A stretch of DNA of 24,773 bases, from NCBI GenBank assembly GCA_016840945.1, contig JAEORJ010000152.1:1-24773 (forward strand), written 5' to 3'. This DNA is from Candidatus Gerdarchaeota archaeon (GTDB taxonomy: Archaea; Asgardarchaeota; Heimdallarchaeia; JABLTI01). Shown here piece after piece: positions 2 to 21,916 of the stretch (the stretch's first letter is position 1; the number at the start of each line of letters is the position of its first letter). The position numbers were made by a program, and so were the translations under genes. The notes below the pieces were generated by a model. That model was not told where the DNA came from and ran no database searches. It worked only from the letters and a program-made list of their open reading frames with translations.

Positions 2-499
2 CAATTAAACATAAGTTTTGATCATAAATTTGCCATCCGTTTACCTCGAGAGTATCCTGCAAACTTATCACATATTAAAATGCGCTCAATTACAAGACTT
101 TGGCACCCAAGAATTTCAGCTGGTGGAGGAGATGCTTGTATCACAGTGAACGGAGAATTAGATAGGATTTTCATTGATTTAATGTATCATGTAATGATGG
201 ATCCAAAAAGAATTCGTCCACCTAAACTTTATCCTAAGGAAGACTCCGGTATGAATGCTCAAGCAATGCGTTGGTTTGAAAGTGATGCAGATAATATTCA
301 TAATTTGATGCTGGCAAAATGGGATGCTACCCATGAAAAATCATCACTCAAAGATGCTGGTGGAATTCGTATAATTGGTGGTGATTCTAAGGAACTGAAA
401 GAACCGGGGAAGCAAGACAAAACAATTCGAATAATTCCTAAAGATAAAGAGGAAGAAAAAGCAGAGAAAGAAGACAAGAGGAAGGTGCGGATTCTATGA
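2..499 (+). CDS. Ubiquitin-conjugating enzyme E2-like protein with motif-bearing C-terminal tail (5' end missing)
   Basis: The reading frame is open from the left edge, so the protein is N-terminally truncated; the ATG at 80 is internal to the fold. The visible part follows the E2 (UBC) order: a strand plus a YP turn (PREYPAN), then HPRI, a Cys 11 residues after that His (codon 137-139; E2s usually have about 10), a helix, an LNPEAA-like MNAQA segment near 257, and a final helix ending AKWD. E2 enzymes carry a ubiquitin-like protein on this Cys as a thioester. After the fold comes a charged, probably disordered tail of about 55 residues with three similar motifs, GIRII (362-376), TIRII (422-436) and a terminal VRIL (485-496). 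The tail overlaps the next gene by ATGA, implying translational coupling. E2 fold is fairly sure; conjugating activity is inferred from the Cys position. Confidence 0.72.
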   Translation, partial: QLNISFDHKFAIRLPREYPANLSHIKMRSITRLWHPRISAGGGDACITVNGELDRIFIDLMYHVMMDPKRIRPPKLYPKEDSGMNAQAMRWFESDADNIHNLMLAKWDATHEKSSLKDAGGIRIIGGDSKELKEPGKQDKTIRIIPKDKEEEKAEKEDKRKVRIL

Positions 500-771
500 A
501 GCAAAAAAAATTAGATGATGATTTAGAGGAACCTACAGAGTTTGCTTTTGAAATCAGCTCAAATAATAATGAAATGGACGAATTAGAAGAACTAAGAGAA
601 CTGGAAATAGAAGAAACACCAGAACCATCACCTAAGAAAACAATTAAGATAATATCAGAACGAGATATGGAAATAAAAGAGGTTCCTCCACCTAATTTTT
701 CTAAACATTTAGCTTGTGTTCTTCACTATAAAGGGAAAGATTATTCCAATAGGAAATTACTGAAGAAATAA
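496..771 (+). CDS. Small acidic protein of unknown function coupled to the E2-like gene
   Basis: This 91-residue protein starts at an ATG overlapping the stop of the E2-like gene (ATGA), so the two are co-translated. I do not recognise a family. Residues 1-45 are very acidic and low in complexity (many E, D and L), residues 49-53 are TIKII followed by SE, and the last 25 residues are basic with a possible small folded piece containing HLACVLHYKGKDY. There is no signal peptide or membrane segment. The TIKIISE element is nearly identical to SVKIISE in the RING-like protein at 9326-9679 and to TIRII in the adjacent E2-like tail, which suggests a shared partner. It could be an adaptor or scaffold for the E2; that role is inference. 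Confidence 0.7.
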   Translation: MKQKKLDDDLEEPTEFAFEISSNNNEMDELEELRELEIEETPEPSPKKTIKIISERDMEIKEVPPPNFSKHLACVLHYKGKDYSNRKLLKK

Positions 772-777
772 TACCAA

Positions 778-789
778 TCTCTTTTTTTT
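778..789 (+). terminator. T-run terminator of the E2-like operon
   Basis: Eight consecutive T follow directly after the 91-aa gene. A T-run without a stable hairpin is the usual archaeal intrinsic terminator. Confidence 0.45.
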
Positions 790-873
790 GACAATGCTTC
801 CAAACATTCAAAAATCGTTTAAAGTTGAAACTGTAATTATACACTTTGAACAAAAGTTTAAGACAAGTAGCAC

Positions 874-880
874 TATAAAG
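874..880 (+). promoter_or_regulatory. Candidate TATA box for the first ammonia-lyase gene
   Basis: CACTATAAAG stands about 28 bases before the ATG at 906, which would give a very short leader. The same CACTATAAA core occurs before hisS (7606-7612). A purine-rich AAGGAAG at 891-897 could act as a ribosome binding site if transcription starts further upstream. Confidence 0.4.
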
Positions 881-905
881 TACTTTTCACAAGGAAGAAT
901 AGCAT

Positions 906-2624
906 ATGCCAAAAATAATTCTCGATGAAAATGGTTTAACAATAGAGGATGTTTGTCAGATTGTCCATAAGGATTATTCACTGGAATTAGCTGATTCAGT
1001 AAAAGAGAAAGTCAATCTCTCGAGGATAGCTATTGAAAAAGCAGTAGAATCAGGACAAAAGATCTATGGTATTACTACAGGCTTTGGTGCACTTAGGGAT
1101 ATTGTCATTCCTGAAAAAGATGCTTCAAAACTTCAAACAAATCTAATTAAAAGTCACTCTGTTGGTGTGGGTGATTTTGCTCCAGATGAATATGTAAAAG
1201 CTATGATGGTTTTACGAGTAGCAGCTCTTGCGCGAGGAAATTCTGGTTGTCAATTACAAACACTTGAGAATCTTATTGCAATGATAAATGTAAATGCCTT
1301 ACCAGTTGTACCATTAAAAGGTTCAGTAGGTGCAAGTGGAGATTTAGCTCCTTTATCTCATATGGCATTGGCAATGATAGGTGAGGGAAAGAGCAACCTA
1401 AAATATAAAGGGCAAATTTATGATGCAGAGAAAGGATTGGCAAAGGCTAACATTCCTAAAACAATATTATCCTATAAAGAAGGATTAGCGCTAAATAACG
1501 GTGCTCAATTTTCAGCGGGGATAGGATGTATAACTATCATAAGAGCTTATAATCTATTACAAAATGCTATAGTAGCTACTGCCTTGTCAATGGAAGCATT
1601 AAAAGCTGCTAGACAGCAATTAGATGAACGAATACATTTAGCAAGAAATCATCCAGGTCAAACAGAAATAGCTAAAACAATCCTTAATTACACAGAAGAT
1701 AGTGTTTTCATAAAAATCCATGATAGTATCTTTACATGTGCTACTGAAAATTGTGGTTATTATTATGATAAAAGTGTAGGTGATTCTACACAAGTGATTG
1801 CTAAGGAAACAGATTTTGTTAGATTACCAGATACTTGGGTTTGTCCTAATTGTGGTGCATCAAAGAACAATTTTGAAAAGCAATGGCCAAAAGTACAAGA
1901 TGATTACTCAATACGATGCACACCTCAGGTATTGGGTCCAATAAAAGAAACATTAGACTTTTGCAAAGATATCTTATCTCGAGAGGTAAACGCAGCAACA
2001 GACAATCCATTGATCTTTATAACAAAAGAAGAGCCATTAGAATGTGACATTTACTCTGGTGGGAATTTCCATGGAGAACCAATAGCACTTGCAATGGATT
2101 ATGTCTCAATAGCAATGGCTGAAGTAGGAAATATTTCCGAGCGACGGAGCGCGACATTAATTGATAAGAAGAGAAATCAAGGATTGAGTCTCTTTTTAAT
2201 ACCCCAAAGCCAACTTGGCTTGAATAGTGGTTATATGATGCCACAATACACTGCTGCAGCATTAGTGTCTGAAAATAAAACATTGGCAACACCAGCATCA
2301 GTAGATTCCATCCCAACATCAGATGAAGCAGAAGACCATGTAAGTATGAGTCCTATAGCAGCAAGGAAAGCAGCAGCTATAATTGAGAATTTGGAATTCA
2401 TTATTGCCATTGAAATGATGTTAGCAGTACAAGCAATTGATTTACGATGCGAGATTCAGAAAATAGCTCCTGAAGATGCATTAGGGAAGAAAACAAAGAT
2501 AGCCTACAAAGCTATAAGAGAAGCAGTTCCAAAATTAATTGAAGATAGAGTCATTTATCCAGATATCAATAAAATAGCTGAAATCATAAAAGATAGCACA
2601 ATCATTAATGAAATAGAAAAATAA
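906..2624 (+). CDS. Histidine ammonia-lyase family protein with an inserted rubredoxin domain
   Basis: A 572-residue MIO-dependent aromatic amino acid lyase (histidine to urocanate plus ammonia if it is a true HAL). Family marks: YGITTGFG with the catalytic Tyr54; Ala-Ser-Gly at 143-145 (GASGDLAPLSH), which cyclises to the MIO cofactor; QDDYSIRC at 331-338; GGNFHGEP at 385-392; and AEDHVSM near 475-481. The specificity pair is Ser83-His84, as in HALs rather than HL (tyrosine) or FL (phenylalanine) lyases. Unusual: residues 276-324, just before the YSIRC active-site segment, form a rubredoxin-like domain (C278-x4-C283 GYYYD, then W311-V-C313-PN-C316-G), making the protein about 60 residues longer than ordinary HALs. 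There are no other hut genes nearby, so urocanate use is unproven; an aminomutase or other aromatic substrate remains possible. Confidence 0.85.
   Translation: MPKIILDENGLTIEDVCQIVHKDYSLELADSVKEKVNLSRIAIEKAVESGQKIYGITTGFGALRDIVIPEKDASKLQTNLIKSHSVGVGDFAPDEYVKAMMVLRVAALARGNSGCQLQTLENLIAMINVNALPVVPLKGSVGASGDLAPLSHMALAMIGEGKSNLKYKGQIYDAEKGLAKANIPKTILSYKEGLALNNGAQFSAGIGCITIIRAYNLLQNAIVATALSMEALKAARQQLDERIHLARNHPGQTEIAKTILNYTEDSVFIKIHDSIFTCATENCGYYYDKSVGDSTQVIAKETDFVRLPDTWVCPNCGASKNNFEKQWPKVQDDYSIRCTPQVLGPIKETLDFCKDILSREVNAATDNPLIFITKEEPLECDIYSGGNFHGEPIALAMDYVSIAMAEVGNISERRSATLIDKKRNQGLSLFLIPQSQLGLNSGYMMPQYTAAALVSENKTLATPASVDSIPTSDEAEDHVSMSPIAARKAAAIIENLEFIIAIEMMLAVQAIDLRCEIQKIAPEDALGKKTKIAYKAIREAVPKLIEDRVIYPDINKIAEIIKDSTIINEIEK
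1731..1877 (+). other. Rubredoxin-like domain inserted in the ammonia-lyase
   Basis: The segment encodes residues 276-324 of the lyase. It has CGYYYD, GD, LPDTWVCPNCGASKNNFE in the same order as free rubredoxins, and the second-to-third Cys distance (C283 to C313) is 30 residues, as in rubredoxin. The only deviation is C-x4-C instead of C-x2-C in the first knuckle, a variant I recall in a Desulfovibrio rubredoxin-2. All four metal ligands and the aromatic core (Tyr, Tyr, Trp) are present, so Fe or Zn binding is likely. The frame is continuous on both sides. Confidence 0.85.
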
Positions 2625-2699
2625 TGGTTAAAAAATCCAAAAAAAATATCTTCAATAAATTTTATTAAGTGGTAAAGAGCGAAAAAAGATAAAAGTAAT

Positions 2700-2808
2700 G
2701 CCGGGATGGTGTAGCGGCAACATTCGGGACTGTGGAATCTTTGAGATGTCCTCAGTCTCATCATGCAGCAATCCTGAGCCGAGAGTTCGATTCTCTCTCC
2801 CGGCACCA
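2700..2808 (+). tRNA. tRNA-His(GUG) with a 35-nt intron
   Basis: The acceptor GCCGGGA (2700-2706) pairs with TCCCGGC (2798-2804), followed by A73 (2805) and an encoded CCA (2806-2808). T8 is at 2707, the D arm is 2709-2723, and the T arm is GAGAG-TTCGATT-CTCTC (2781-2797). The anticodon stem CGGGA (2725-2729) pairs with TCCTG (2772-2776), and the loop CTGTGG + A gives anticodon GTG (2732-2734), i.e. histidine. The variable loop is 4 nt. The base before G1 is T, so the G-1 identity element is not encoded, and the discriminator is A rather than the C usual in archaeal and bacterial tRNA-His. hisS lies 5 kb downstream. Confidence 0.88.
2736..2770 (+). other. tRNA-His intron with bulge-helix-bulge
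   Basis: The intron sits between positions 37 and 38. The central 4-bp helix pairs CTGT (2730-2733) with GCAG (2765-2768). The three-base bulges are GG|A (2734-2736) and CA|A (2769-2771), each cut after the second base, which is the canonical substrate of the archaeal splicing endonuclease. Within the intron TGAGA (2742-2746) pairs with TCTCA (2756-2760). Confidence 0.82.
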
Positions 2809-2830
2809 AATTCTCCTTCTTTTATTGTTT
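2809..2830 (+). terminator. T-rich terminator after tRNA-His
   Basis: A pyrimidine/T-rich stretch (TTCTCCTTCTTTTATTGTTT) directly follows the CCA end, as is usual after archaeal tRNA genes. It reaches the end of the convergent membrane-protein gene. Confidence 0.4.
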
Positions 2831-3233
2831 AAATAATATAACCTCTGACCATATAAACAGCAAATAAACCAGCTAAGACTACTATTAAAATTGACACAAC
2901 AATAGAGACTACAAACATGATCCAATTTTTCCTATCAAAACATATTCCTGCATAAGTGAGATACGAGTATAACATCATGCCAGAGACGATGAAGTATAGA
3001 TAGTGGCCAAATATTTGCCCTGGAATAAGTAATCCTATACCTGAAATAATGCCAAGAATAGCAGTAAGAAATAATGCTATTGTTACAAATAAATCAGCTT
3101 TCGTTTCAGTTCTCTCTTTTCGTCCTTCAGGTGAAGCAATTTCCTTGATTTTAAATGCTAATGAAATAGCATTCCTACCAATCATAAATAAGCTGCAAAC
3201 ATAGATTATTGGAGCTAAAGCCATTCTTCTCAC
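2829..3233 (-). CDS. Small multispanning membrane protein of unknown function
   Basis: Up to 134 residues, from a GTG at 3233 or an ATG at 3224 three codons later. There are about four hydrophobic segments: roughly residues 3-20, 46-70, 77-98 and 104-130, with a charged loop between the first two (residues 28-44, many K, R and E). I see no family motif. It is convergent with tRNA-His and sits downstream of, but 98 bases from, the alpha-oxoamine synthase gene on the same strand. Function unknown. Confidence 0.6.
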   Translation of the reverse strand: MRRMALAPIIYVCSLFMIGRNAISLAFKIKEIASPEGRKERTETKADLFVTIALFLTAILGIISGIGLLIPGQIFGHYLYFIVSGMMLYSYLTYAGICFDRKNWIMFVVSIVVSILIVVLAGLFAVYMVRGYII

Positions 3234-3330
3234 TATAGAACTCTGGGTATATTTGCTGTTAAATGTTCTGTAATAAAAAAAGGAAAATCAATCGAATTTT
3301 TATTTTCGAATGATCCATTATAGCAGTTAA

Positions 3331-4548
3331 TTAGATGACTTCTAACTCTTTGCCGTGTCTAGTTATTATTTCAACAGCTTCATCAATGGTATCAAAATCA
3401 AATGATGATTGGCATGTTAAACGTAACATTTCACGACCAACATCCACTGCAGGTGCACGAACTGGATTGGTAAAGACACTTCTCGGACGTTCATCCATTA
3501 ATAGCTTGAAGAAATTAAAGGTAGTAAAATCATCACCAACAATAACAGGCAATACCGGTGTTTGTGATCTTCCAGTATCAAATCCTGCATCATTCAAGCC
3601 TTTGCGTAAACGTTCAGTGTTTGCCCAGAGATTTTGTCTTGGGGAGTCATCTTTTTCCATGATGTTTAGAACAGCTAAAACAGTTGCTAAAGCAGATGGA
3701 GGGGAGCTTGCACTGTAAATAAAAGCTCGTGCTTTATGTTTTATCCATTCGCAAAGTATCTTTGAGCCAGCAATGTACCCACCAATGGAGGCGAAGCTTT
3801 TAGAGAATGTTCCCATTATTATGTCAACTTTATCCTCAACTCCATAATGAGAAGCTGTTCCTCGCCCATGATCACCTAGAACACCAACAGAATGGGCATC
3901 ATCAACATAAATGCCTGCACTATATTGTTCTGCTAATTCTGTGATAACATCTAATTGAGCAATGGTCCCTTCCATTGAAAAGATACCATCAGTTACAATT
4001 AATGCATATTCATTATCAGGAATTAACTTTAGGCAATGTTCCAGATCTTCCATGTCATCATGGTTGTAAATTAATTTTCTCTCTTTGGGAATTCCGCTTA
4101 ATTTGATACCATCGATGATTGAAGCATGATTTTGTTTATCAGAGATCACCCAATCGTCTTTGCCAATAATACTGGATAATGCTCCAAGATTGGCTTGCAT
4201 ACCAGTTGAAAAAACCACACAATCTTCTTTTCCTAAAAATTCTGCTAAGCGTTTTTCCAACTCAATATGTAGATCCATTGTGCCATTTAGCAATCTTGAA
4301 CCAGTGGAGCCAACACCATATTTGTCAATTGCTTTCTTGGCAGCTTCTTTAACGACAGGGTTGATGGTCATTGATAAGTAATTGTTGCTACCGAGCATGA
4401 TTACTTCTCGTTCTTCCATATTTACTATTGGTCCTTGTTCACTACTCAATTCCTTGAAGTAGGGATAAAATCCAAGTTCCTTAGTAAACTCAATCTGCTC
4501 GATAATCTCAGATTTAGCTTGTTCCTCGTACCTAGTAAAATAGTTCAT
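3331..4548 (-). CDS. Alpha-oxoamine synthase, serine palmitoyltransferase-like
   Basis: A PLP enzyme of the alpha-oxoamine synthase family (serine palmitoyltransferase, KBL, BioF), which condenses an amino acid with an acyl-CoA and releases CO2. Numbering from the GTG at 4557: GVGSTGSR near 81-88, the PLP-stacking His144 in QNHAS, DDAHS with Asp219 and His222, and the Schiff-base Lys253 in TFSKSFASIGGY. The TFSKS...GG form resembles serine palmitoyltransferases more than the TLGKA form of KBL, but DDAHS is more BioF-like, so the substrate is uncertain. The start is placed at the ATG at 4548; a GTG three codons upstream is the alternative. It is divergent from an SDR reductase at 4704, the pairing expected for 3-ketosphinganine synthesis and reduction; that is inference. 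Confidence 0.85.
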   Translation of the reverse strand: MNYFTRYEEQAKSEIIEQIEFTKELGFYPYFKELSSEQGPIVNMEEREVIMLGSNNYLSMTINPVVKEAAKKAIDKYGVGSTGSRLLNGTMDLHIELEKRLAEFLGKEDCVVFSTGMQANLGALSSIIGKDDWVISDKQNHASIIDGIKLSGIPKERKLIYNHDDMEDLEHCLKLIPDNEYALIVTDGIFSMEGTIAQLDVITELAEQYSAGIYVDDAHSVGVLGDHGRGTASHYGVEDKVDIIMGTFSKSFASIGGYIAGSKILCEWIKHKARAFIYSASSPPSALATVLAVLNIMEKDDSPRQNLWANTERLRKGLNDAGFDTGRSQTPVLPVIVGDDFTTFNFFKLLMDERPRSVFTNPVRAPAVDVGREMLRLTCQSSFDFDTIDEAVEIITRHGKELEVI

Positions 4549-4642
4549 CCAAACCACTGACTTGGATTTCCGCGTAGTATTAATGAATCTTTCTTTTAAC
4601 TATCAAAAATGATACTCATAAAATGTATTTTTCAATAAAAAA

Positions 4643-4650
4643 TTTATATT
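4643..4650 (+). promoter_or_regulatory. Candidate TATA box of the SDR gene
   Basis: TTTATATT lies about 57 bases before the TTG at 4704. It falls inside the longer reading frame that begins at ATG 4623, which supports the downstream start. Confidence 0.35.
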
Positions 4651-4690
4651 GGCAATTGAATGGATATTCTAAAATTAGGACTCATATTCT

Positions 4691-4696
4691 GGAGAT
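4691..4696 (+). promoter_or_regulatory. Ribosome binding site that selects the TTG start at 4704
   Basis: GGAGAT, 7 bases before TTG 4704. The ATG at 4623 has no comparable sequence in front of it. Confidence 0.55.
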
Positions 4697-4703
4697 AGTT
4701 AAT

Positions 4704-5711
4704 TTGAATAAAATAGTTGTTATTACGGGTGCATCATCTGGCATTGGATTATCCCATGCTATTTACCTTACTTATTTAGGGTATACTGTTTTTGGGGCAA
4801 GCCGTTTTGAAGTTCCCAATAAAGATGATTTGAAAAAATTATATCTTCAAGACCATACTAAATATAGTTTTACAAATAAAGAGAAAACCAAAGTAAAAGC
4901 CAGGAAAGTCCTTCTTCCTAAGAAGCTCCTCAAAACTCTTGATGAGTTATTAGATAAGATAACTTTCTTCAAAATGGATATTACTTCTGATGAATCAGTA
5001 AATGAATCAGTAACTCAAATGGAGTTGAAAGCAAAAGAGATCAATGGAAAAGGTATTGATGTAATTCTCAACAATGCTGGTATTAGCTTCTTCAAGAGTG
5101 CTGAAGATTTATCAATTGAAGATTGGCAAAAAACATTCGATACAAATGTTTTTGGTTTAATAAGAGTAATAAAGGCAATTTTACCTTTTATGAGAGCTCG
5201 TCGAGAAGGACAAATTATCAACACTAGTTCATTAGGTGCTTATGCAGCAATTCCATACCAAACCCATTATTCAGCTTCAAAAATGGCTGTCAAATTATTA
5301 ACTGAGGGATTAGGGGTTGAATTGCGGGAATTTGGCATTAAGGTTTCAACTCTCTTACCCAGCGACATCAACACGAGTTTTAATGTAAACATGTTAAAAA
5401 TATCAAATTCTATTGAGCATACCTTTGATTCCTATGATTTAACTTCATTATTAGATAATATCCCTACTGATAAGGAGTCGCCATATTATAACTCAGTGAA
5501 AATTGTTTGGAAGGTAATAGTAAAGAACCTAATAGTTGCCCCGCCACCTATTATTATTTCTAAAAAAGTTGCTAAAATTATTCGAAGTAAAAATCCCAAA
5601 ATTAATTATAAATCAGGAAGTCTATCACAAATATTTCTAACCTATTTAATACAAAGAATCGTTAGTGATAAGTTCACTTATACTTTACTACCAAAGTATT
5701 TTGGTCTTTAA
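4704..5711 (+). CDS. Short-chain dehydrogenase/reductase
   Basis: A classical SDR oxidoreductase. From the TTG start the protein begins (M)NKIVVITGASSGIG, the nucleotide-binding TGxxxGIG at the usual place near the N-terminus; the ATG at 4623 would add 27 residues unlike SDRs. Then come NNAG (around 5070-5081), the catalytic Ser in NTSS (around 5221), and YSASK with catalytic Tyr and Lys (5268-5282). At 335 residues it is longer than the 250 usual, with a basic insertion after the first beta-alpha unit (about 4812-4960) and a C-terminal extension of about 90 residues. It is divergent from the SPT-like gene and could be a 3-ketosphinganine-type reductase; the substrate is not shown by sequence. 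Confidence 0.82.
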   Translation: MNKIVVITGASSGIGLSHAIYLTYLGYTVFGASRFEVPNKDDLKKLYLQDHTKYSFTNKEKTKVKARKVLLPKKLLKTLDELLDKITFFKMDITSDESVNESVTQMELKAKEINGKGIDVILNNAGISFFKSAEDLSIEDWQKTFDTNVFGLIRVIKAILPFMRARREGQIINTSSLGAYAAIPYQTHYSASKMAVKLLTEGLGVELREFGIKVSTLLPSDINTSFNVNMLKISNSIEHTFDSYDLTSLLDNIPTDKESPYYNSVKIVWKVIVKNLIVAPPPIIISKKVAKIIRSKNPKINYKSGSLSQIFLTYLIQRIVSDKFTYTLLPKYFGL

Positions 5712-5728
5712 CTTATTTTTCAGTTTAA

Positions 5729-5757
5729 GCCCTAATTATTAGGGCAATTATTTATTT
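5729..5757 (+). terminator. Hairpin terminator after the SDR gene
   Basis: GCCCTAA (5729-5735) pairs with TTAGGGC (5739-5745) around a TTA loop, followed by a T-rich tract. Confidence 0.5.
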
Positions 5758-5855
5758 TAACAACTTAGATGGTCTAAATTTATTAGTCTCTTTTAGATAA
5801 AGGTTTTAAAGAATGAGCACTTATTTTTCTAGATATTGAATTAAGGTGCAAAATA

Positions 5856-7415
5856 ATGACCTATATTATAACTGGTTCTGGACTAACAATTGAAGATGTT
5901 GTCAAAGTTGCACGACATAATGAAAAAGTAGAATTGCATCCAGATGCGATTGAACGAATGAAAGTTTGTAGAGCTATGCTTGAAGAAAAAATCGTAGCAC
6001 ATGAGATCATGTATGGTGTAAACACTGGCATTGGTGAATTTTCTGAAGTAGTGCTTAATGATGATCAAGTAAAGCAATTTCAAAAATATTTAATTTATAA
6101 CCATGCAGCAGGAATTGGGAAACCTGCTCCAATTGAACATGTAAGAGCTGCAATATTAGGTAGAATTAATGTTCTAGCACATGGTAATTCTGGCAATAGA
6201 CCAATCATTGCTCAAACAATGGTTGAAATGCTAAACAAGGGAGTAACTCCAGAAGTCTGTGAAAAAGGCTCTGTGGGGGCTTCTGGTGATTTATGTTCTA
6301 TGTCCCAAATAGCTTTATTGTTGATGGGAGAAGGCCGAGCATTTTACAAGGGCAAATTAATTCCAGGTAAGGAAGCTATGGAAAAAGCTGGTATTGAAAT
6401 CCCAGGCTTAAAAGCAAGAGATGGTTTAGCAGCTATTAATGGCTCCAATTTTCTTACCGCAATGAGTGCTTTATGGCTTTATGATGCTATGCAATTTATG
6501 AAGCAAGCAGAAATTGCTTGTGCAATGACGATTGAAGCTTTAATGGGTAATATGAAACCTTATACACCAATGTTACATGAAATTCGAGGTTTCCCAGGCG
6601 CGATAAGAAGTTCAAAAGCTCTAACCAAATTATTCAAAGGTGGAGATTTGTATGAAGCTAGATTAAAAGTTAAAGTACAAGATGCTTATTCAATGCGTTC
6701 AGCTCCACAAGTACTAGGTGCAGCTCATGATGCATTAGCATTTGCTCGTTCACAGGTAGAAATCGAATTAAATGGCGTAGGTGATAATCCTGTCTTCTTC
6801 CCAGATAAAAAATTACAATTGACAGGTGCTAATTTCCAAGGCACTCCTGTTTGTTTACCAATGGATATGGCTGGAGCAGCTATAACAATGGTTTGTGTAA
6901 TATCTGAACGAAGAATGAATAGATTAAATCATCCAGCGTTAAGTGTTGGCCTCCCACCATTCTTAACTAAAGGTGCTGGGATGATGTCTGGTTTAATGCT
7001 TAGTCAATATGCTGCAGATATGCAAATTGTTGAAATGCGAATTTTATCCATGCCAGCAAGCATACAATCAATTCCAGCTGCTGCTGATCAAGAAGATTTT
7101 GTCTCAATGGGTATGAATACTGCCCTAAAGAACAATCAAATTCTTGACAACGCTTATGGCGTTCTCGGCATTGAATTTATGGCTGCAGCGCAGGCATTAG
7201 ATTTACGTGAAGAACTCTTAAAATCTGATCAATTAAAAGACAGAAAAATCAAATTTGGTGATGGTGTAGCAAAAGCTAGGGAAGTTATTAGAAAACATGT
7301 TGCTTTCTTAGATGAAGACAGGCCATTATTTGACGACCACAATGCCATGAAGGCATTAGTTAAATCTGGTGAAATTCTCACAGAAGTAGAAAAAGCTGTT
7401 GGAAGCTTAGATTAA
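5856..7415 (+). CDS. Histidine ammonia-lyase family protein (second paralogue)
   Basis: A 519-residue MIO-type lyase, without the rubredoxin insertion of the first copy and distant from it. Marks: YGVNTGIG with Tyr53, MIO triad Ala-Ser-Gly at 141-143 (SVGASGDL), QDAYSMRS, and ADQEDFVSM. Several positions differ from typical HAL: Asn82-His83 instead of Ser-His, INGSN instead of NGTQ, NFQGTP instead of NFHGEP, and DLCSMSQ instead of DLAPLSH. The His that marks histidine-type lyases is retained, but these changes could mean another aromatic substrate or aminomutase activity. GGTG at 5845-5848 is a ribosome binding site 7 bases before the ATG. A terminator hairpin follows at 7433. No hutU, hutI or formimidoyltransferase gene is adjacent. 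Confidence 0.85.
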   Translation: MTYIITGSGLTIEDVVKVARHNEKVELHPDAIERMKVCRAMLEEKIVAHEIMYGVNTGIGEFSEVVLNDDQVKQFQKYLIYNHAAGIGKPAPIEHVRAAILGRINVLAHGNSGNRPIIAQTMVEMLNKGVTPEVCEKGSVGASGDLCSMSQIALLLMGEGRAFYKGKLIPGKEAMEKAGIEIPGLKARDGLAAINGSNFLTAMSALWLYDAMQFMKQAEIACAMTIEALMGNMKPYTPMLHEIRGFPGAIRSSKALTKLFKGGDLYEARLKVKVQDAYSMRSAPQVLGAAHDALAFARSQVEIELNGVGDNPVFFPDKKLQLTGANFQGTPVCLPMDMAGAAITMVCVISERRMNRLNHPALSVGLPPFLTKGAGMMSGLMLSQYAADMQIVEMRILSMPASIQSIPAAADQEDFVSMGMNTALKNNQILDNAYGVLGIEFMAAAQALDLREELLKSDQLKDRKIKFGDGVAKAREVIRKHVAFLDEDRPLFDDHNAMKALVKSGEILTEVEKAVGSLD

Positions 7416-7432
7416 ATAGCTTTAATTATTAG

Positions 7433-7475
7433 ATGAGAAGGCAAATCTTCTCATTATCTTTTATTTTTATTATTT
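7433..7475 (+). terminator. Hairpin terminator after the second lyase
   Basis: ATGAGAAG (7433-7440) pairs perfectly with CTTCTCAT (7447-7454) around a 6-base loop, followed by a T-rich tract. Confidence 0.6.
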
Positions 7476-7605
7476 TCATACCTTTAGATAGAAAATTTTA
7501 AATAATTTTGACGGGGAAAAACTGTCGGTGTAAATAAAAATGTGGGATAATTTTCACACAGATAAATAATCGAAAATTCTTTTTAGCTAGATTATTTTGT
7601 AACAC

Positions 7606-7612
7606 TATAAAT
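7606..7612 (+). promoter_or_regulatory. Candidate TATA box of hisS
   Basis: CACTATAAAT matches the element before the first lyase gene. The start point would be near 7635, leaving a leader of about 70 bases. The 290-base gap 7416-7704 otherwise holds the upstream terminator, this box and the leader hairpin. Confidence 0.4.
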
Positions 7613-7627
7613 CCCACTTCTGAAAGA

Positions 7628-7676
7628 GTTCTTTTAAAGGCATTGAAGTCTAATCTATTAGATGTTTTAAAAGAAC
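7628..7676 (+). promoter_or_regulatory. Structured leader of hisS (nested hairpin)
   Basis: GTTCTTTTAAA (7628-7638) pairs perfectly over 11 bases with TTTAAAAGAAC (7666-7676). Inside lies a second hairpin, TCTAA (7649-7653) with TTAGA (7658-7662). It ends 16 bases before the ribosome binding site GAGGT (7693-7697). Its position suits a cis-regulatory leader controlling hisS translation; the function is inferred. Confidence 0.45.
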
Positions 7677-7704
7677 GATTACCAGTAGTTTTGAGGTATG
7701 AAAA

Positions 7705-9195
7705 ATGACTAATGAACAGAATATATCAATAACCAAACCAGCAGGATTTCGAGATTTCTTTCCAGAAGATTTTGCAAAAGTATCCTTTGTATTAAACACC
7801 ATGCGACGTGTCTCACTTGAATTTGGTTATGTGGAGTATGAACCTCCCTCGGCTGAATTGCTAAAATTATATGAATTGAAATCAGGTGCAGGCCTTATTT
7901 CAGAAACTTTCAAAATTACTAGTAGAAGTGGTCAAAAGTTGGTTCTTATACCAGAGTTAACTCCGACATTAACTAGGATGTTAGCTGAAAGGCAGCAATA
8001 TTATACTAAACCTATTAGATGGTTCTCAATTCCTCGATGTTATCGTGATGAAACATTACAGAGAGGACGAGTCAAAGAATTTTGGCAGTATAATGCTGAT
8101 ATTCTTGGAATGGAAGAAATATATGCAGATGCAGAAATTATTACAATCCTAATTGAAGTTATCAGACAATGTGGTTTATCAGAAAAGCATTTTGTAGTTT
8201 ATATTAATGACCGATCATTCATGCAATCATTTATGGAAAGCATTGGTGTCACTGATTTTGTTGATATAATCAGAATTTTTGATCGTAAGGATAAATTGCT
8301 TCAAGAAAAGGTCCAAAAAATGCTGAAAAAATCCTTTAGTGATAATGAAGCTGAAACTATTGCTCTTTCAATAAGACAATCATATACACAAGGCGAAAAA
8401 ATATTCAAAGAAATACCTGATACTAAAGAAACACGAAAGATTATTGAAACATTTGAGGATATCCGTAAAGAAGCATTTATTGAAGCATTGCTAAAATACA
8501 AGATTACTAATGAACAAGCTGAAATTCTCTATAAATTATCAGAAATTAAAGCTCAACCAAAAGAATTCATCAAGAAAGTAACTGAGCTTTACGCTGGTGA
8601 AAATGCTGATGAATTAATTTCAAACCTAAAAGAATTAGCAATATTACTTGAGAGCTTTGGTTTGAATAAATACATACTCTTTGACGGTAGTTTAGCTCGA
8701 GGATTAGATTATTACACTGGAATTATTTTTGAGGCTTGGAGTAGAGAAGGAGTACTTCCAAGAGCGATAGCAGGTGGTGGACGATATGCTGATCTAGTAG
8801 CAACCTTAGGAGGTCAACCATTAACTGGAACTGGTTTCGGTTTTGGTGAAACGGTGTTAATGGAGCTAATGGATGAATTTGGTATCGAGTATCCACAAAC
8901 CACTAACAGCGATGTGTATATTGCCCCAATAAAATTAGATGATTTATCAATAGTAATTGATCTCTCAAATAAGTTAAGAAAGAGGGGCATTAGAGCAGTT
9001 TTGAATGCTTTCGATTGGAGAATAAAACGTCATTTTGAAAATGCTGAAAAACAGAATGTGCAGTGGATGTTAATTGTTGGTCAGAAAGATTTGGAAAATA
9101 ATTCCGTGACCTTACGGGATATTATTTCTGGAGAGCAAGAATTAGTACCAATAAAAGATATCGTTTCTGTTTTATCCAAGAAAATTAAAAAATAG
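7705..9195 (+). CDS. hisS: Histidyl-tRNA synthetase
   Basis: A class II aminoacyl-tRNA synthetase that charges tRNA-His with histidine in the cytoplasm. Seen: the motif 2 region RWFSIPRCYRDE followed by QRGRVKEFWQYNADILG (about residues 110-140), the HisRS-specific GLDYYTG near residue 333 and AGGGRYADLV near 353, and a C-terminal anticodon-binding domain from about 400 (VYIAP... with RAVLN and MLIVGQKD). At 496 residues it is slightly longer than bacterial HisRS because of a helical insertion around residues 200-300, as in archaeal/eukaryotic forms. GAGGT lies 7 bases before the ATG. Its tRNA is encoded at 2700. The terminal GLDYYTG and histidine A motifs argue against the HisZ paralogue, which lacks a complete anticodon domain. 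Confidence 0.95.
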   Translation: MTNEQNISITKPAGFRDFFPEDFAKVSFVLNTMRRVSLEFGYVEYEPPSAELLKLYELKSGAGLISETFKITSRSGQKLVLIPELTPTLTRMLAERQQYYTKPIRWFSIPRCYRDETLQRGRVKEFWQYNADILGMEEIYADAEIITILIEVIRQCGLSEKHFVVYINDRSFMQSFMESIGVTDFVDIIRIFDRKDKLLQEKVQKMLKKSFSDNEAETIALSIRQSYTQGEKIFKEIPDTKETRKIIETFEDIRKEAFIEALLKYKITNEQAEILYKLSEIKAQPKEFIKKVTELYAGENADELISNLKELAILLESFGLNKYILFDGSLARGLDYYTGIIFEAWSREGVLPRAIAGGGRYADLVATLGGQPLTGTGFGFGETVLMELMDEFGIEYPQTTNSDVYIAPIKLDDLSIVIDLSNKLRKRGIRAVLNAFDWRIKRHFENAEKQNVQWMLIVGQKDLENNSVTLRDIISGEQELVPIKDIVSVLSKKIKK

Positions 9196-9204
9196 TAGAA
9201 TAGT

Positions 9205-9232
9205 TAAGGGGACCCCCCCTTACGCTTTATTC
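9205..9232 (+). terminator. GC-rich hairpin terminator after hisS
   Basis: TAAGGGG (9205-9211) pairs with CCCCTTA (9216-9222), loop ACCC, followed by CGCTTTATTCTT. It stands out in AT-rich surroundings. Confidence 0.5.
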
Positions 9233-9315
9233 TTAATAGATACCCTAACATAGTTGAAAATTACTTAGATATTACCAGCAATTATAATTTAGAATTGTAA
9301 TATTATTATGAATTG

Positions 9316-9320
9316 GGTGA
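9316..9320 (+). promoter_or_regulatory. Ribosome binding site that selects ATG 9326
   Basis: GGTGA, 5 bases before the ATG at 9326, overlaps the coding sequence that an ATG at 9308 would require. Confidence 0.55.
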
Positions 9321-9325
9321 ATTGT

Positions 9326-9679
9326 ATGGTCAATCTTAGAACGGAGCAGATTCGTTGTGTGTTATGCAACAAGCAATTAGATATGACTATGCAAAGCAAC
9401 AATGAATTATTTATTTGTGCGAACTGTCAAGCGTATTTCTGTCCTGATTGCTTAGAAGCTATCAAAAATTATCGTTATTGCCCTGCTGCTAGTCTGATGG
9501 GCGTGGATGATCACAAGCCAAAATTTCTAAAAATTTTACCACCAAAACCAGTTATTTCAACAAGTCAACAGGTACCATATAGGGCTGAATCAAAATCCGT
9601 TAAGATAATTTCTGAGAAAAAAGTAAAGATTATTGACCAAAACGAAAAGGATAAAGCTAAATCCAAAAAGAAAAAATGA
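9326..9679 (+). CDS. RING-like zinc-binding protein with motif-rich tail (possible E3)
   Basis: 117 residues from the SD-supported ATG (123 from ATG 9308). Numbered from 9308, the cysteine-rich N-terminus reads C17-x2-C20, C37-x2-C40, C45-x2-C48 and C58-P, with His69 as a possible eighth ligand. This resembles the small RING-finger proteins found with archaeal ubiquitin systems (srfp of Caldiarchaeum), though spacing is not textbook and a general zinc-ribbon pair is possible. The tail (70-123) is basic and disordered with FLKIL (73-77), SVKII (98-102) followed by SE, and KVKII (105-109) followed by D, the same motif as in the E2-like tail at the left of the window. It is followed after 34 bases by the transglutaminase-like gene and is probably co-transcribed. 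An E3 role is inference. Confidence 0.65.
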   Translation: MVNLRTEQIRCVLCNKQLDMTMQSNNELFICANCQAYFCPDCLEAIKNYRYCPAASLMGVDDHKPKFLKILPPKPVISTSQQVPYRAESKSVKIISEKKVKIIDQNEKDKAKSKKKK

Positions 9680-9713
9680 CTTCAAATAACCAAGTGCTGA
9701 TTGAGGATTTAAC

Positions 9714-11429
9714 GTGCTGATAAAACCATTTATAGCTACTGAACAAGGAGAACTTCCCTTAAAAGATAATCGCACTATAAAGAATGGTGAGAAATTACGA
9801 TTAGTTATTGCTTCCTCTTCAACCGATAGTGTTACTAATCCTGCTACTTTAGTTGAGGTATTAAACCCTCTAGAGAGGCAAGTAGTAACTGGTGATTTGC
9901 CCGTTATTGATGAATCAAAATTACTTTTTTTTGATGTTATTATTCCTGAAAATTGGATTGCTGGTAATTATTGCGCAGATATACTTGATAGTAACCAAAA
10001 GATCTTAGATAGGTGTTATTTTGTCATAGCACCATTAACTCCATTACAATCATACTTGACTGAAAGATCCCTACATCCTAAATGGCGTATACATTATCGC
10101 TTAAAAATACGAAATACTACTACTAAACCAATAGGGAATTTTTCTGCTTATGTAGCATTACCAATGAGTATTACCCCTCATCAATTCACTAAGGAATTAA
10201 TGACAACACCAGAACAGCTAACAATTTCAACAGATGTGGAAGGGAATCAATGGACTCATTTTCAAGTAAAATTAATTAATCCAAGGGAATCAATGGAGAT
10301 GGGCTATTCAGGAATAGTTGAATGCAATCCGTTATTATTAAGCCAAAATCTTATAGTTGAATCAAAAGGGAATCCTTACGAATCTGACTTTTTGCGGAAA
10401 TACCTCCAACCTGAACCACATATCGAAAGTGATCATGAAAAAATAGTTGCAATGGCAACAAAAATAACAGATGGCAATCCAATAATATTTGCTAAAAAAG
10501 CAATCAAATTGGTTAACCAGTTAATTACTTACAAAGTTCAACCAAAGGAGTATGGGGCAGCATATGCTGTTGAGAAAAAAGAGGGTGATTGTACAGAATT
10601 TTCAGCGCTATTTGTTGCATTATGTAGAGCTGTGGGAATACCTGCTAGGACTACTGCTGGTTTTGCTTTAGCTCAAAAAAATTGGGAAAGACATGCAGCG
10701 GTAGAATTTATGGTTAGTGGGAGATGGATTCAGGCAGATGTTACAGGCCAAAGAAATAATGATATTTCTTTAGGTTATTTCCCAAATTATATAATGGTTA
10801 CTCGAGGGAATTGGATGGGAGGGACATTAGCTCAAGAAGTATCTTACAAATATCAAATTATGGAACAAAATCAAAAATTAGATGTTGATATTGATTGGAA
10901 GATTATTTTTGATAAGGATAATAAATCAGTAAAAGAGTTATCACCCCCTCCAAGTAAAGTTAAGATTCTTGAACCAACTATACAGGAGAGCTCTAAAGTA
11001 AAAATCTTGGATTTACAAGAAACCCCTCTTAAAATTAATATTAAACAGAAAGAAAAACCAACTAATGAATTAATCACTGTTTACAGTAATAATCTAAGTG
11101 TTGTTGGAATCAATCAAAAAGTTAAATCTGTTGAACTGAAAGTTAAATTACCAGATATAATAAAACATAGCAGTAAACGAAAGCAATTAGTAGAATTATT
11201 AAATAATTCAGAAGATGAACAACGAGGATGTATTGAAGTTCGTCAAATTGATGATGGAATTACCAAATTATTATATCTTAAAGGATTGAAATTACCTTCT
11301 ATCAGCAATCAAAAATTAAAGATTCCTTTTGTTTTAGATAAAATCGGAACTACCAACCTCGAAATCATTTTTACAAATAGAATTGGTCGAACAATTGCTA
11401 AAGAAGATGGGAAATTAAGCGTTTATTAA
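9714..11429 (+). CDS. Transglutaminase-fold cysteine protein with SIM-like motifs
   Basis: 571 residues from a GTG start with GAGGA 6 bases upstream. Residues 1-110 are beta-rich and 120-215 look like an Ig-type domain. A transglutaminase-like (papain-fold) core follows, with a complete triad: Cys293 in EGDCTEFSALFVALCRAVGIPAR, His327 (ERHAAVEF) and Asp342 (WIQADVT). A linker (about 400-450) carries two KVKIL copies (415-419, 428-432), and a beta-rich C-terminal domain follows (450-571). No signal peptide or membrane segment is visible, so it is probably cytosolic. In this superfamily the triad supports protease, peptide-N-glycanase or transglutaminase chemistry; the substrate is unknown. The pairing with a RING-like gene and the shared motifs make an isopeptidase or processing enzyme for a ubiquitin-like protein one hypothesis. 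Confidence 0.78.
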   Translation: MLIKPFIATEQGELPLKDNRTIKNGEKLRLVIASSSTDSVTNPATLVEVLNPLERQVVTGDLPVIDESKLLFFDVIIPENWIAGNYCADILDSNQKILDRCYFVIAPLTPLQSYLTERSLHPKWRIHYRLKIRNTTTKPIGNFSAYVALPMSITPHQFTKELMTTPEQLTISTDVEGNQWTHFQVKLINPRESMEMGYSGIVECNPLLLSQNLIVESKGNPYESDFLRKYLQPEPHIESDHEKIVAMATKITDGNPIIFAKKAIKLVNQLITYKVQPKEYGAAYAVEKKEGDCTEFSALFVALCRAVGIPARTTAGFALAQKNWERHAAVEFMVSGRWIQADVTGQRNNDISLGYFPNYIMVTRGNWMGGTLAQEVSYKYQIMEQNQKLDVDIDWKIIFDKDNKSVKELSPPPSKVKILEPTIQESSKVKILDLQETPLKINIKQKEKPTNELITVYSNNLSVVGINQKVKSVELKVKLPDIIKHSSKRKQLVELLNNSEDEQRGCIEVRQIDDGITKLLYLKGLKLPSISNQKLKIPFVLDKIGTTNLEIIFTNRIGRTIAKEDGKLSVY

Positions 11430-11536: not shown

Positions 11537-13417
11537 ATGGATGATAAAACAATGCTTTTTGTGGTCACAGCCCTTATTATTGGGTTAATTTTTGGTGTGA
11601 TAGCTGCAGGAGTAACTTGGGCTATTAAACGGCGACTATCACCTGCGGTTGGTATTATGAGTGGAGCAGCATTCTTGGCAGCTTTTATTATTGCTTCAAT
11701 ACAATTTTGGTTCGCAATGCCAACTTGGGGATCAATTATCCTAGTATCTTTACTAGTAATTGGTATTGGTATAATTGTACTTTTGAGAATAAACTCACGG
11801 AAATTTAAACAAGTTTGGCAAAAACCAGAAAGAATTGTTGTTCTACTAATTGGTGCGCTAATTATTGTTGTTCCTGCTTATTTTGGTGCTAGTAGTGCTA
11901 TTTTCAAGGGATTTGATCAAGCTAAATATTTTGATTCGATAATACAATTTCCAGAGGAAAAGACACCTTTCTCAAGTATAATTCATGGCGACAATTTACG
12001 TGTAGTTGACATGGATTTAGCAATTGAGTTAATCCAAAAGAACAATCCATTTGGTAGTAATTCTATGATTCTTGACATTCATATTGGGAATGTCTATGGA
12101 AAACTCATGTGGATTGGTGCAATAGGCTCAGATGATATTATGATTGGCTCGGATAATCTGGGTCGGAAAAGAAACTCTATTTTTGGTTTTGTAGGTGTTG
12201 ATTTAACAGATCCTTCAGAGGAAGTAGTAAAAATCGAACAAACATTCAGTATTAGCTCATATTTAGTTAGAATGAAGATGCTAGAAAGGATAATTTGGAA
12301 AATAAATCCAAATTACCGTCCTGGTGATAACAGCTACTTCTCAATGAACGAAGATGATGAAATGAGATTACTTGTGCCTTATTCTGTTTCAGAAAGCTGG
12401 CGTATTGAATCTGATCTTGGCCTTGGAATGACCACTTACCTCGAAAAACTAGGTGGTGTTTTGGAGTTCAATAGCGATGGTGAGCTTGTTGAAGATTATA
12501 AAGACTTAAATGATTTACCAGATTATGCTCAAATACAATGTTATCCTGAAAATTGGTTAGAATATAACATAAATAAATGGGGCAGGCATCGAAAAGATAA
12601 CCACGAATTTGCTTATTTCTTCACAACATCAGAACAACTTGGTATATCTTGGTATGATGACATTCGAGTAATTTATGATGCTAATACCGGTGAAACCTCA
12701 CAATATGTAATGCTAACCCAACCTGAATCAGAAAGTCAATTATTACGTGGAGCTATAAAAGCAAATCAAACAGGGATATACTTCTTTGATTGGTCTGATT
12801 TAAACAAAAAACCCATTGATACATATAACGCACTGATACATTGTAATACTAAAGTAGAAGATCATGCATATCTAGAAGGATACGATGCTGATAATTACAT
12901 TCCTATCCTACCACTACTATTTCCAATTAAAAATGAATTCAATAATATAAGTGACTATGCTTACGTTGTACCTATGCAATATAGTAGTATACGTTTTGGT
13001 GGCATTTGTATTACTAATCCTTTTGACACCACTGGTGTTGATACAATAGTGAAGATTGCAGGTACATCAGATAGTGTAGAGGATGTGCTGGATGAAGCAG
13101 TAACTGAATATCTTGAGTTAATTGGTAGTACACAAATAGTAGAAAATGAATACGATGAGAATTTCACAATCTATGATTTGGCTTCCTTTATACAAGATGG
13201 TGATACAATCTATGTTGCTTATGGAAATCTATCCTATATTCCTGAAGGTAACACCACACCTGTAAGTGTAAATACTACCGTTTGGTTTACTCAAGACTAC
13301 CTAAATATCTCTCAATGGCAACTAGTAATTTTCTTAGAAATTGGCGACATATTAGAATTGAATGTTGTTCAAATTAACTCCATCTATTATTGCATAGAAA
13401 TAATTACTATTACATAA
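11537..13417 (+). CDS. Membrane-anchored protein with large extracytoplasmic domain, unknown function
   Basis: 626 residues. Four N-terminal membrane segments (about 6-29, 37-59, 63-83 and 98-116) are followed by about 500 residues without further spans, rich in aromatic and acidic residues and probably outside the cell. The early part of this domain contains NLRVVDMDLAIELI and a beta-rich region through about residue 330 that vaguely recalls large bacterial membrane proteins I cannot name with confidence. I see no catalytic motif. It lies 107 bases downstream of the transglutaminase-like gene and may be transcribed with it or from its own promoter. A bidirectional hairpin follows. Confidence 0.75.
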   Translation: MDDKTMLFVVTALIIGLIFGVIAAGVTWAIKRRLSPAVGIMSGAAFLAAFIIASIQFWFAMPTWGSIILVSLLVIGIGIIVLLRINSRKFKQVWQKPERIVVLLIGALIIVVPAYFGASSAIFKGFDQAKYFDSIIQFPEEKTPFSSIIHGDNLRVVDMDLAIELIQKNNPFGSNSMILDIHIGNVYGKLMWIGAIGSDDIMIGSDNLGRKRNSIFGFVGVDLTDPSEEVVKIEQTFSISSYLVRMKMLERIIWKINPNYRPGDNSYFSMNEDDEMRLLVPYSVSESWRIESDLGLGMTTYLEKLGGVLEFNSDGELVEDYKDLNDLPDYAQIQCYPENWLEYNINKWGRHRKDNHEFAYFFTTSEQLGISWYDDIRVIYDANTGETSQYVMLTQPESESQLLRGAIKANQTGIYFFDWSDLNKKPIDTYNALIHCNTKVEDHAYLEGYDADNYIPILPLLFPIKNEFNNISDYAYVVPMQYSSIRFGGICITNPFDTTGVDTIVKIAGTSDSVEDVLDEAVTEYLELIGSTQIVENEYDENFTIYDLASFIQDGDTIYVAYGNLSYIPEGNTTPVSVNTTVWFTQDYLNISQWQLVIFLEIGDILELNVVQINSIYYCIEIITIT

Positions 13418-18193: not shown

Positions 18194-19141
18194 ATGAGTG
18201 AGAAAATTTTAGTTACTGGTGGTTGTGGATTTATAGGAAGTAACATTGTTCGAGCTTTGCTTAATGAAGACTATAGAGTTAAAATCATCGATGATTTATC
18301 AACAGGAAAAAAGGCTTATGTAAAAGATTGCTTGGAAGATAGCAATTGTGAGTTTATTCATGGTAGCATAACCAATTTAGCAACTGTAGAGAAGCAAATG
18401 AAAGATGTTAATACAGTTATTCATGAAGCTGCAAATCCTGATGTTCGAGCTAGCACAAAGAACTTGTTTAGCGTCTTTGAAACGAATGTTAAAGGAACAA
18501 TTAATATCTTATCAGCTATGGCTAAAGAACACACTCCAAAAATTATTTTTGCTTCATCTGCAGGCACAGTGTATGGAGAAACTGATGTTATACCTACCCC
18601 TGAAACTCTTCCTTTAGAACCAATCAGTCATTATGGCGCCTCAAAAGCTGCTTCTGAACAATATATCTCAAGTTTTTCTAGTTTATATGGAATCGAAGCT
18701 TTTTCATTACGTTTAGGTAATATTTTTGGTCCACCCTCTAATCATGGTGTAGTATACGATTTCTTCAAGAAATTGCAAAAAGACAGCGCCAAACTCGAGA
18801 TACTAGGTGATGGCCAGCAAATAAAATCTTACCTTTATGTTGAGGATTGTGTTAAAGCACATTTGAAAGCTCTTGAAACAACAGTGAAAGGACATGTCCC
18901 ATTAAACATTTCTACTAATGAAGGAGTCACAGTGATTAAGATAGCAGAAATAATAGTGGAAGCACTACAATTGAAAGATGTTTCATTTACATTCACTGGT
19001 GGTGAAAGAGGTTGGGCTGGTGATGTTCGAAAAACTGTTGCTGATATTTCTAAAGCTAAAACAATTTTACAATGGGAGCCAAAGATCTCAATAAAAGATG
19101 GTATTTACAAGTACATTTCATGGCTTAAGAATCTAAAATAG
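18194..19141 (+). CDS. NAD-dependent nucleotide-sugar epimerase/dehydratase (GalE-like extended SDR)
   Basis: 315 residues. TGGCGFIGSNI at 8-18 binds NAD; DDLSTGK follows at the second strand; HEAANPDVRAS near 79-89 is the active-site loop typical of UDP-glucose 4-epimerase-like proteins; SSAGTVYG contains the catalytic Ser/Thr; YGASK near 150 gives the catalytic Tyr and Lys; RLGNIFGPP and a C-terminal substrate lobe complete the family pattern. Likely reaction: epimerisation of a UDP- or dTDP-sugar for glycan or glycoprotein synthesis. GGTG at 18184-18187 precedes the ATG. It ends 17 bases from the convergent HAD gene; the nucleotidyltransferase beyond it may supply the substrate. Confidence 0.88.
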   Translation: MSEKILVTGGCGFIGSNIVRALLNEDYRVKIIDDLSTGKKAYVKDCLEDSNCEFIHGSITNLATVEKQMKDVNTVIHEAANPDVRASTKNLFSVFETNVKGTINILSAMAKEHTPKIIFASSAGTVYGETDVIPTPETLPLEPISHYGASKAASEQYISSFSSLYGIEAFSLRLGNIFGPPSNHGVVYDFFKKLQKDSAKLEILGDGQQIKSYLYVEDCVKAHLKALETTVKGHVPLNISTNEGVTVIKIAEIIVEALQLKDVSFTFTGGERGWAGDVRKTVADISKAKTILQWEPKISIKDGIYKYISWLKNLK

Positions 19142-21114: not shown

Positions 21115-21150
21115 AATAAAAAATAATAGAAACTCGAAAAAATCGAGTTT
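21115..21150 (-). terminator. Hairpin terminator of the UEV/ESCRT-I-like gene
   Basis: AAACTCGA (21130-21137) pairs with TCGAGTTT (21143-21150) around five A. On the minus strand the hairpin overlaps the stop codon and is followed by CTATTATTTTTTATTC. Confidence 0.6.
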
Positions 21151-21829: not shown

Positions 21830-21916
21830 AACTAATATCAACTCTTATGCTTACTTCTAAATGGTAAATGGAGCTTTTACATTATTAAACACTTTTATTC
21901 TGTCAAGGGGCAATGG

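Follow-up and report, generated by a model that had tools for sequence, protein, structure and literature searches.

Genes and motif copies at the locus

We analysed a 24,773-nt contig of a Candidatus Gerdarchaeota archaeon (JAEORJ010000152.1, assembly GCA_016840945.1; this whole stretch is called the window below), in which an E2-like enzyme, a 91-residue acidic protein (the partner), a RING-like protein and a transglutaminase-fold protein (TGase) carry a short shared motif, [VIL][KR]I[IL]. These proteins are parts of an apparently so far undescribed ubiquitin-like conjugation system of Asgard archaea. We scanned 22 open reading frames (ORFs) for the motif, picked by us among the 42 listed for the window, and obtained ten matches: three in the E2 tail, one in the partner, three in the RING-like protein, two in the TGase linker and one in an NAD-epimerase-like protein. 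The first nine sit in four of the 22 ORFs, at the positions named by the original prediction from this DNA (Table 1); the tenth, at 18278-18289, lies inside the fold of the epimerase-like protein. Because the codons differ between copies, recent DNA duplication of the motif is unlikely, as had been argued.

The window begins within the E2 gene, so the upstream neighbours of this gene are invisible in it. The putative catalytic Cys codon of the window E2 is at 137-139, within HPRISAGGGDACITVNGE. H124, P125, R126 and C136 are invariant among 11 aligned E2s, which gives the UBC-type arrangement of a catalytic Cys after HP. For the model of a relative's E2, UBC enzymes were among the best Foldseek matches, albeit weak ones (E 5.8e-4, TM 0.55 by target), and the E2 sequence profile reached UBC enzymes at E 0.018 or worse. 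The RING-like protein is matched by Pfam RING models below the cut-off only. The best PDB match of its profile is RNF4, at E 1.1e-7 for an entry matched in two stretches and 3.2e-4 to 6e-4 for other RNF4 entries. The N-terminal region of RNF4 is described as holding four close SUMO-interacting motifs (SIMs) (PMC12751080).

Table 1. The four motif-bearing proteins of the window and their motif copies
Feature	Position	Strand	Basis and remarks
E2-like enzyme, truncated at its 5' end by the window start; three motifs in a charged tail	2..496	+	ORF list; PF00179 17.7 bits, below cut-off
IRII, first E2-tail copy	365..376	+	window motif scan; kept in relatives
IRII followed by P, second E2-tail copy	425..436	+	motif scan; family-1 relatives
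VRIL, very C-terminus of the E2	485..496	+	motif scan; terminal or near-terminal copy in relatives
91-residue acidic partner, start touching the E2 stop; core TIKIISERD...PPNFS...H	496..771	+	ORF list; alignment
IKII, partner copy	643..654	+	motif scan; present in 14/14 aligned partners
RING-like protein, eight invariant Cys/His, then charged tail	9308..9679	+	ORF list; alignment; profile search
LKIL, motif-like, directly after the RING zinc domain	9527..9538	+	the second clade (see below) has RFLGP or similar there
VKII, RING tail	9599..9610	+	motif scan; relatives
VKII, RING tail	9623..9634	+	motif scan; relatives
Transglutaminase-fold protein	9714..11429	+	Pfam Transglut_core, 6.5e-19
VKIL, linker after the transglutaminase core	10959..10970	+	motif scan; TGase orthologues
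VKIL, same TGase linker	10998..11009	+	motif scan; TGase orthologues

Motif frequency against chance

Shuffling the tails gave counts of [VI]x[VI][IL] as high as those observed with P=0.00015 for the window E2, 0.016 for the window RING and 0.018 for the window TGase linker, and with P=0.00055 (E2) and 0.0014 (RING) in the distant relative G067. The single copy of the partner was not significant alone (P=0.14). As a background we used 1.84 Mb of the relative G003 (1,672 ORFs) in place of the source genome, with disorder measured on a simple, crude scale at three cut-offs. The strict pattern ([VIL][KR]I[IL] in the window, [VILM][KR]I[ILM] in G003) and the loose pattern ([VILM]x[VI][ILVM]) were both chosen from the system itself, and the sole independent part of the comparison is the G003 background rate. 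At disordered positions of G003, the strict motif occurred at 5/81 in the four system proteins and 2/2,944 elsewhere (odds ratio 97, Fisher 2.5e-7); looser disorder cut-offs gave 5/103 vs 9/8,442 (odds 48) and 5/158 vs 37/28,818 (odds 25). The corresponding values for the loose pattern were 6/81 vs 20/2,944 (P 4.6e-5), 6/103 vs 99/8,442 (P 0.0016) and 7/158 vs 394/28,818 (P 0.0066). None of the strict hits in G003 disordered stretches fell within the TGase.

The ubiquitin-like system in related genomes

A genome scan with the window TGase led to one relative, the Candidatus Heimdallarchaeota metagenome-assembled genome L001 (genome G001). The E2 is present in all nine genomes examined from the G001 family, and in those six of the nine E2 loci that have their genes on the strand read the order is E1 (ThiF), ubiquitin-like protein (Ubl, 103-105 residues), E2 and acidic partner, the last overlapping the E2 stop; the Ubl gene is thus seen in relatives, upstream of where the window starts. 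A JAMM gene precedes E1 in G001 and G003. Both in G003 and in the window, the genes lying between the partner and the downstream RING and TGase genes include ammonia-lyase and HisRS genes. A second clade (G064-G071) has Ubl, E2, partner, RING and TGase in an unbroken row; E1 faces this row from its downstream side, and JAMM lies on the far side of E1. Coordinates place Ubl and TGase on the same contig in six of the eight genomes and on separate ones in G069 and G071. Because they are contiguous with Ubl, E2 and partner in this clade, the RING-like protein and the TGase belong to the system, and in this respect the proposal that the four proteins of the window are parts of one Asgard ubiquitin-like system is borne out, with E1 and JAMM beside them. 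JAMM (PF14464) matches were on the Ubl contig in 13/19 genomes, on the TGase contig in 2 more, and on other contigs only in 4 (G007, G008, G062, G063).

Searching the 227 genomes of the phylum with the Ubl matched 20, of which 19 were kept. The dropped genome, G077, had a weak match (E 0.008) to a sequence that looked MoaD-like by eye. The E2 profile matched the same 19/227 genomes. Ordinary ubiquitin (PF00240) is encoded in 18 of these 19 as well (in G003 on another contig), and the motif-bearing system is therefore a second one.

The fold of the Ubl is predicted with good confidence: the model (pLDDT 86.7) has ubiquitin-fold matches, in keeping with a beta-grasp modifier with a glycine end. 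The VG end is invariant in 13 aligned sequences and is followed there by 0-3 residues; in six sequences aligned from the window's clade no residue follows it. Extensions of 4 (P0027), 11 (P0038) and 13 (P0037) residues follow VG in other homologues. Judged from its sequence, such a VG plus extension looks like a modifier precursor. Tied among the structural matches of the Ubl were a toluene monooxygenase subunit, EccD, SUMO1, the parkin Ubl and others, and a profile search against the PDB gave nothing useful (6 hits at E <= 10, none to SUMO). Among 36 database homologues, all those with a name shown were "hypothetical protein". In one 154-residue homologue (P0039) the Ubl runs straight into an apparent E2 start, which is either a natural Ubl-E2 fusion or a frame accident.

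The E1 matches ThiF at 2.2e-44, which identifies the adenylation domain. Cys200 is invariant in eight aligned sequences, as are C53 and C80, together with zinc-type pairs C178/C181 and C277/C282; Cys200 is a candidate catalytic residue. The best matches of the E1 profile were ubiquitin E1 domains (3.6e-20), and UBA5 was matched over nearly the whole length (3.3e-12).

Among the papers that we saw on Asgard ubiquitin-like, SUMO-, UFM1- or Smc5/6-type systems, none describes this system. Four E2-like candidates, two of them with a catalytic Cys, are reported for one Heimdallarchaeota genome (PMC9192718), and archaeal gene Clusters I-III are described with their detail in supplements (PMC5654768); an E2 of the window's type may be among either set.

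Conservation of the motif

Among the 19 Ubl genomes, 17 of 18 readable E2 tails have at least one ψ-x-ψ-ψ copy (ψ, hydrophobic); the E2 of G071 is cut off and its tail unread. In the protein database, 80 of 95 E2 homologues were countable by our rule, and 79 of these 80 tails have the motif. By eye, 9 of the 15 left out end in the motif and 2 in a partial motif, and 4 are fragments or unlike it. All 16 RINGs found in Ubl genomes have two or more motifs when F is allowed at position 3. The motif is also present in 14/14 aligned partners (those of G005 and G064 included), where I50 and I52 are among the few nearly invariant residues; G063 yielded no acidic partner. In G001 and G003 the ordinary E2 has no tail.

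The E2-tail search itself demanded hydrophobic residues at positions 1, 3 and 4 and left position 2 free. Over 178 E2-tail copies, position 2 was R in 122, Q in 25, K in 24 and another residue in 7. At aligned places in E2, RING and partner the hydrophobic positions persist and position 2 changes. The motif as first predicted needs correction at this position, where K or R is not required: distant relatives carry V, Q, T, A or E instead. The core is followed by D in 51, G in 27, the chain end in 26, E in 25, P in 20, T in 11, S in 8 and other residues in 10 of the 178 copies; D, E, G, P and chain end together account for 149, and D, E, T and S for 95, G, P and chain end being also common.

Since relatives reduce the motif to ψ-x-ψ-ψ, the comparison with SIMs made in the original prediction is apt: ψ-X-ψ-ψ is given as the rule for SIMs (PMC12751080). 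As in SIMs, the hydrophobic core lies in a disordered segment, both on the simple disorder scale and by the low pLDDT of the E2 tail. The motif is real, conserved and specific to the system, and on two of the points by which the prediction could have been overturned, frequency in other disordered tails (G003 scan) and conservation in orthologues, it proved enriched and conserved.

Transglutaminase-fold protein and SMC neighbourhood

Two motif copies are present in the TGase linker of 9/9 orthologues from the window's clade. We compared them with 15 TGase orthologues from genomes without the Ubl, taken among 30 cut loci (the TGase search matched 87 genomes): none of the 15 has the motif in the stretch examined, and L074 has ISVL just before it. 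The TGase is accordingly a motif bearer within the window's clade and not a general one, because its copies are specific to that clade. Two genomes without the Ubl (L096, L097) keep a TGase orthologue ~6-7 kb from kleisin-like and RING-paralogue genes, which suggests a possible older function of the TGase alongside these genes.

All 8 loci of the second clade have an ORF with an SMC-type P-loop next to the Ubl; Pfam assigns the one scanned to SMC_N. G001 carries an SMC-like gene upstream of JAMM, and G003 a 995-residue ORF in the corresponding place. The G001 protein, the one SMC searched, matched yeast Smc6 best in the PDB, over its whole length (1.1e-14), followed by a Smc4-labelled entry (2.6e-10). 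"SMC5/6-related" archaeal SMCs are already known (PMC9389158), and what seems new here is the link of an SMC to the Ubl system. The kleisin and kite labels of the small genes nearby come from gene order and weak winged-helix hits; Pfam recognises neither, and similar small genes also occur in genomes without the Ubl. SMC-like, kleisin-like, kite-like and second RING-like genes form a cluster in L023, L093 and G003:C13 (~20.6-25.7 kb). Inspection by eye showed no motif-bearing tail in the RING paralogue at this locus (151-163 residues, five loci). In G003 and G001 an apparent linker of the kleisin-like protein contains VRII/VRIV and IAIL; this protein was not counted as a bearer because a similar stretch is seen, by eye, in genomes without the Ubl.

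Other features of the window

A 626-residue membrane-type protein with no Pfam family above the cut-off (11537-13417, + strand) comes after the TGase in the window as well as in L001, L064 and G003. The ammonia-lyase-like protein at 906-2624 (+) has an insert, CATENCGYYYD...LPDTWVCPNCGASKNNFEKQW, which we take to read like rubredoxin; an insert of this kind is also seen in relatives. Positions 5856-7415 hold a second ammonia-lyase-like gene. A tRNA gene at 2700-2805 (+), scored at 47.7 bits by Rfam and missed by ARAGORN, probably has an intron, as it is 106 bases long. At 21149-21841 (-) a UBC-fold protein (PF00179, 45 bits) without the active-site Cys continues into a coiled coil and has orthologues in L001 and G003; it resembles the UEV-bearing ESCRT-I protein Vps23.

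Interpretation of the motif

By analogy with SIMs, we favour the reading that the motifs are SIM-like and dock the cascade on the system's own Ubl. The functional short linear docking motif would read approximately [R/G/S/T]-[V/I]-x-[I/V]-[I/L]-[D/E/S/P/G/end] and be borne by the E2, the presumed RING E3, the acidic partner and, in the window's clade, the TGase. Each flexible tail would contribute a beta-strand next to strand 2 and helix 1 of the VG-ending beta-grasp modifier, in the fashion of a SIM, and two or three tandem copies would provide avidity for charged or multiply conjugated modifier. Non-covalent binding of the modifier could in this way hold E2, E3 and the processing or editing enzymes together. 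Judging from the protein families, the VG end would be activated by E1 and the modifier passed on by E2 and RING, while trimming of precursors or removal of the modifier would fall to the JAMM or TGase protein. A read-through model, with Ubl and E2 in a single chain of 371 residues (mean pLDDT 69.6, pTM 0.53), gives a weak hint of motif strand pairing: from residue 323 on, the tail stays under pLDDT 50 apart from the last motif, RVRILD (361-366), of which 363-364 are in a strand or bridge.

Several observations weigh against this reading. Enrichment of the loose pattern in G003 is mild (12-, 5- and 3-fold by cut-off). The TGases of the second clade have no linker motif in 5/7 cases and incidental matches in 2/7, and those of G062 and G063 have none (0/2). 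In G062 the E2 tail shows no more than a variant at its end, SKVVMLD, and no RING was found in G008, G062 and G063. Residues before the E2 core are mostly R, G, T, S and A, unlike many SIMs, which have acids there. The fold of the Ubl does not single out SUMO among its several tied matches. Finally, the pTM of the read-through model is 0.53, its partner strand is unreported and the other tail copies are undocked.

A genuine docking motif could be shared by the four bearers and yet be read by another receptor, such as E1, JAMM, the folded portion of RING, partner or TGase, or the neighbouring SMC/kleisin/kite complex. The receptor is one that we infer, and the E1 and JAMM sequences, when read by eye, have no such tail motif, so these two are also candidate receptors; the SMC-type ORF, moreover, adjoins the Ubl throughout the second clade. 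However, partner, RING, E2 and TGase are themselves bearers, and ψ-x-ψ-ψ in disordered tails is the code recognised for a beta-grasp modifier according to PMC12751080, which makes another receptor rather unlikely in our estimate. The copies might instead be C-terminal or internal beta-strands that pair with their own fold or with each other, as in homotypic assembly or a condensate, and need no separate receptor. They are indeed hydrophobic, beta-prone patches within charged tails, and an E2-paired strand cannot be separated from a Ubl-paired one in the read-through model; the occurrence of the same motif in unrelated proteins, in linkers of variable length and at very C-termini renders such pairing improbable.

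Auto-modification of a motif lysine was also considered, since K or R occupies position 2 in most copies and the Caldiarchaeum E2 is described as modifying itself on a C-terminal lysine (PMC5654768). The counts at position 2 of the E2 tails, where K is far outnumbered by R and matched by Q, together with the V, T, E or I found there in relatives of RING and partner, leave very little room for a conjugation site. We hold it least credible of all that the Lys/Ile/Glu-rich composition of the tails yields the matches by chance: although single copies such as that of the partner are not significant and lax cut-offs leave the loose pattern with a mild enrichment, the strict enrichment in G003, the shuffles of multi-copy tails and the conservation in the counted E2 tails all argue against it.

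Comparison with known systems

The present motifs share with SIMs a ψ-x-ψ-ψ core in disordered tails, often in tandem and common to E2, presumed E3 and other proteins of the system; D, E or S often stands next to the core, though G, P and the chain end do so too. They differ in being archaeal, with presumed binding and acids after the core rather than before it, and the modifier is not demonstrably SUMO: it ends in VG and not GG, SUMO is absent from its six PDB sequence hits, and its structural matches are tied. A RING with tandem ψ-x-ψ-ψ motifs and RNF4 as best PDB match recalls the RNF4-type SUMO-targeted ubiquitin ligase (STUbL), in which the motifs precede the RING; in the Asgard protein, known here from sequence alone, they follow it.

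The Caldiarchaeum/Asgard ubiquitin operon, as outlined in PMC5654768 and PMC6043591, comprises ubiquitin, E1, E2, a small RING and Rpn11/JAMM. The same set of parts beside a JAMM gene is found in our system, and in some relatives the modifier likewise has a short C-terminal extension. VG in place of GG, the long motif-bearing E2 tail with HPR, the extra acidic partner and TGase, and the ordinary ubiquitin gene coexisting in 18 of the 19 genomes set it apart.

The UFM1 system consists of UFM1, UBA5 and UFC1 with strand-adding UFIM motifs. A VG end with a short extension is shared with it in some relatives, but in none of the six aligned sequences from the window's clade, and so is a short one-domain E1 matching UBA5, although ubiquitin E1 domains score higher; motifs that add a strand, as proposed here, would be a further likeness. 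The listed E2 matches, in contrast, are ordinary UBC enzymes; neither UFM1 nor UFC1 was among the listed matches of the Ubl structure and profile or of the E2 profile and model, and no search was aimed at UFM1 proteases. The fold and sequence searches speak neither for nor against UFM1 as the nearest relative, an idea that the VG end had raised. The Smc5/6 complex carries the Nse2 SUMO ligase and the Nse1 RING. What resembles it in relatives is an Smc6-matching SMC with small kleisin-, kite- and RING-like genes bordering the Ubl system; the window is without these genes, the kleisin and kite labels are weakly based, and genomes lacking the Ubl have similar small genes as well.

Significance

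These results point to a second, apparently complete and unannotated ubiquitin-like conjugation system in a lineage near the origin of eukaryotes. Because its parts seem to be joined by a SIM-type code, recognition of a modifier through such motifs may be older than eukaryotes or may have arisen twice. Since most of the proteins are small, synthetic genes allow a direct test of the docking claim. It is conceivable, if doubtful at present, that some Asgard archaea possessed a pre-eukaryotic SUMO-like logic beside ubiquitin, with a SIM-read modifier, an RNF4-like RING and editing enzymes, tied genetically to a Smc5/6-like complex; the SUMO-Nse2-Smc5/6-STUbL network of genome maintenance would then have a forerunner, or a close counterpart, in archaea. 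Why SUMO and Smc5/6 go together is an old question, and the link to an SMC6-like gene opens it to study outside eukaryotes.

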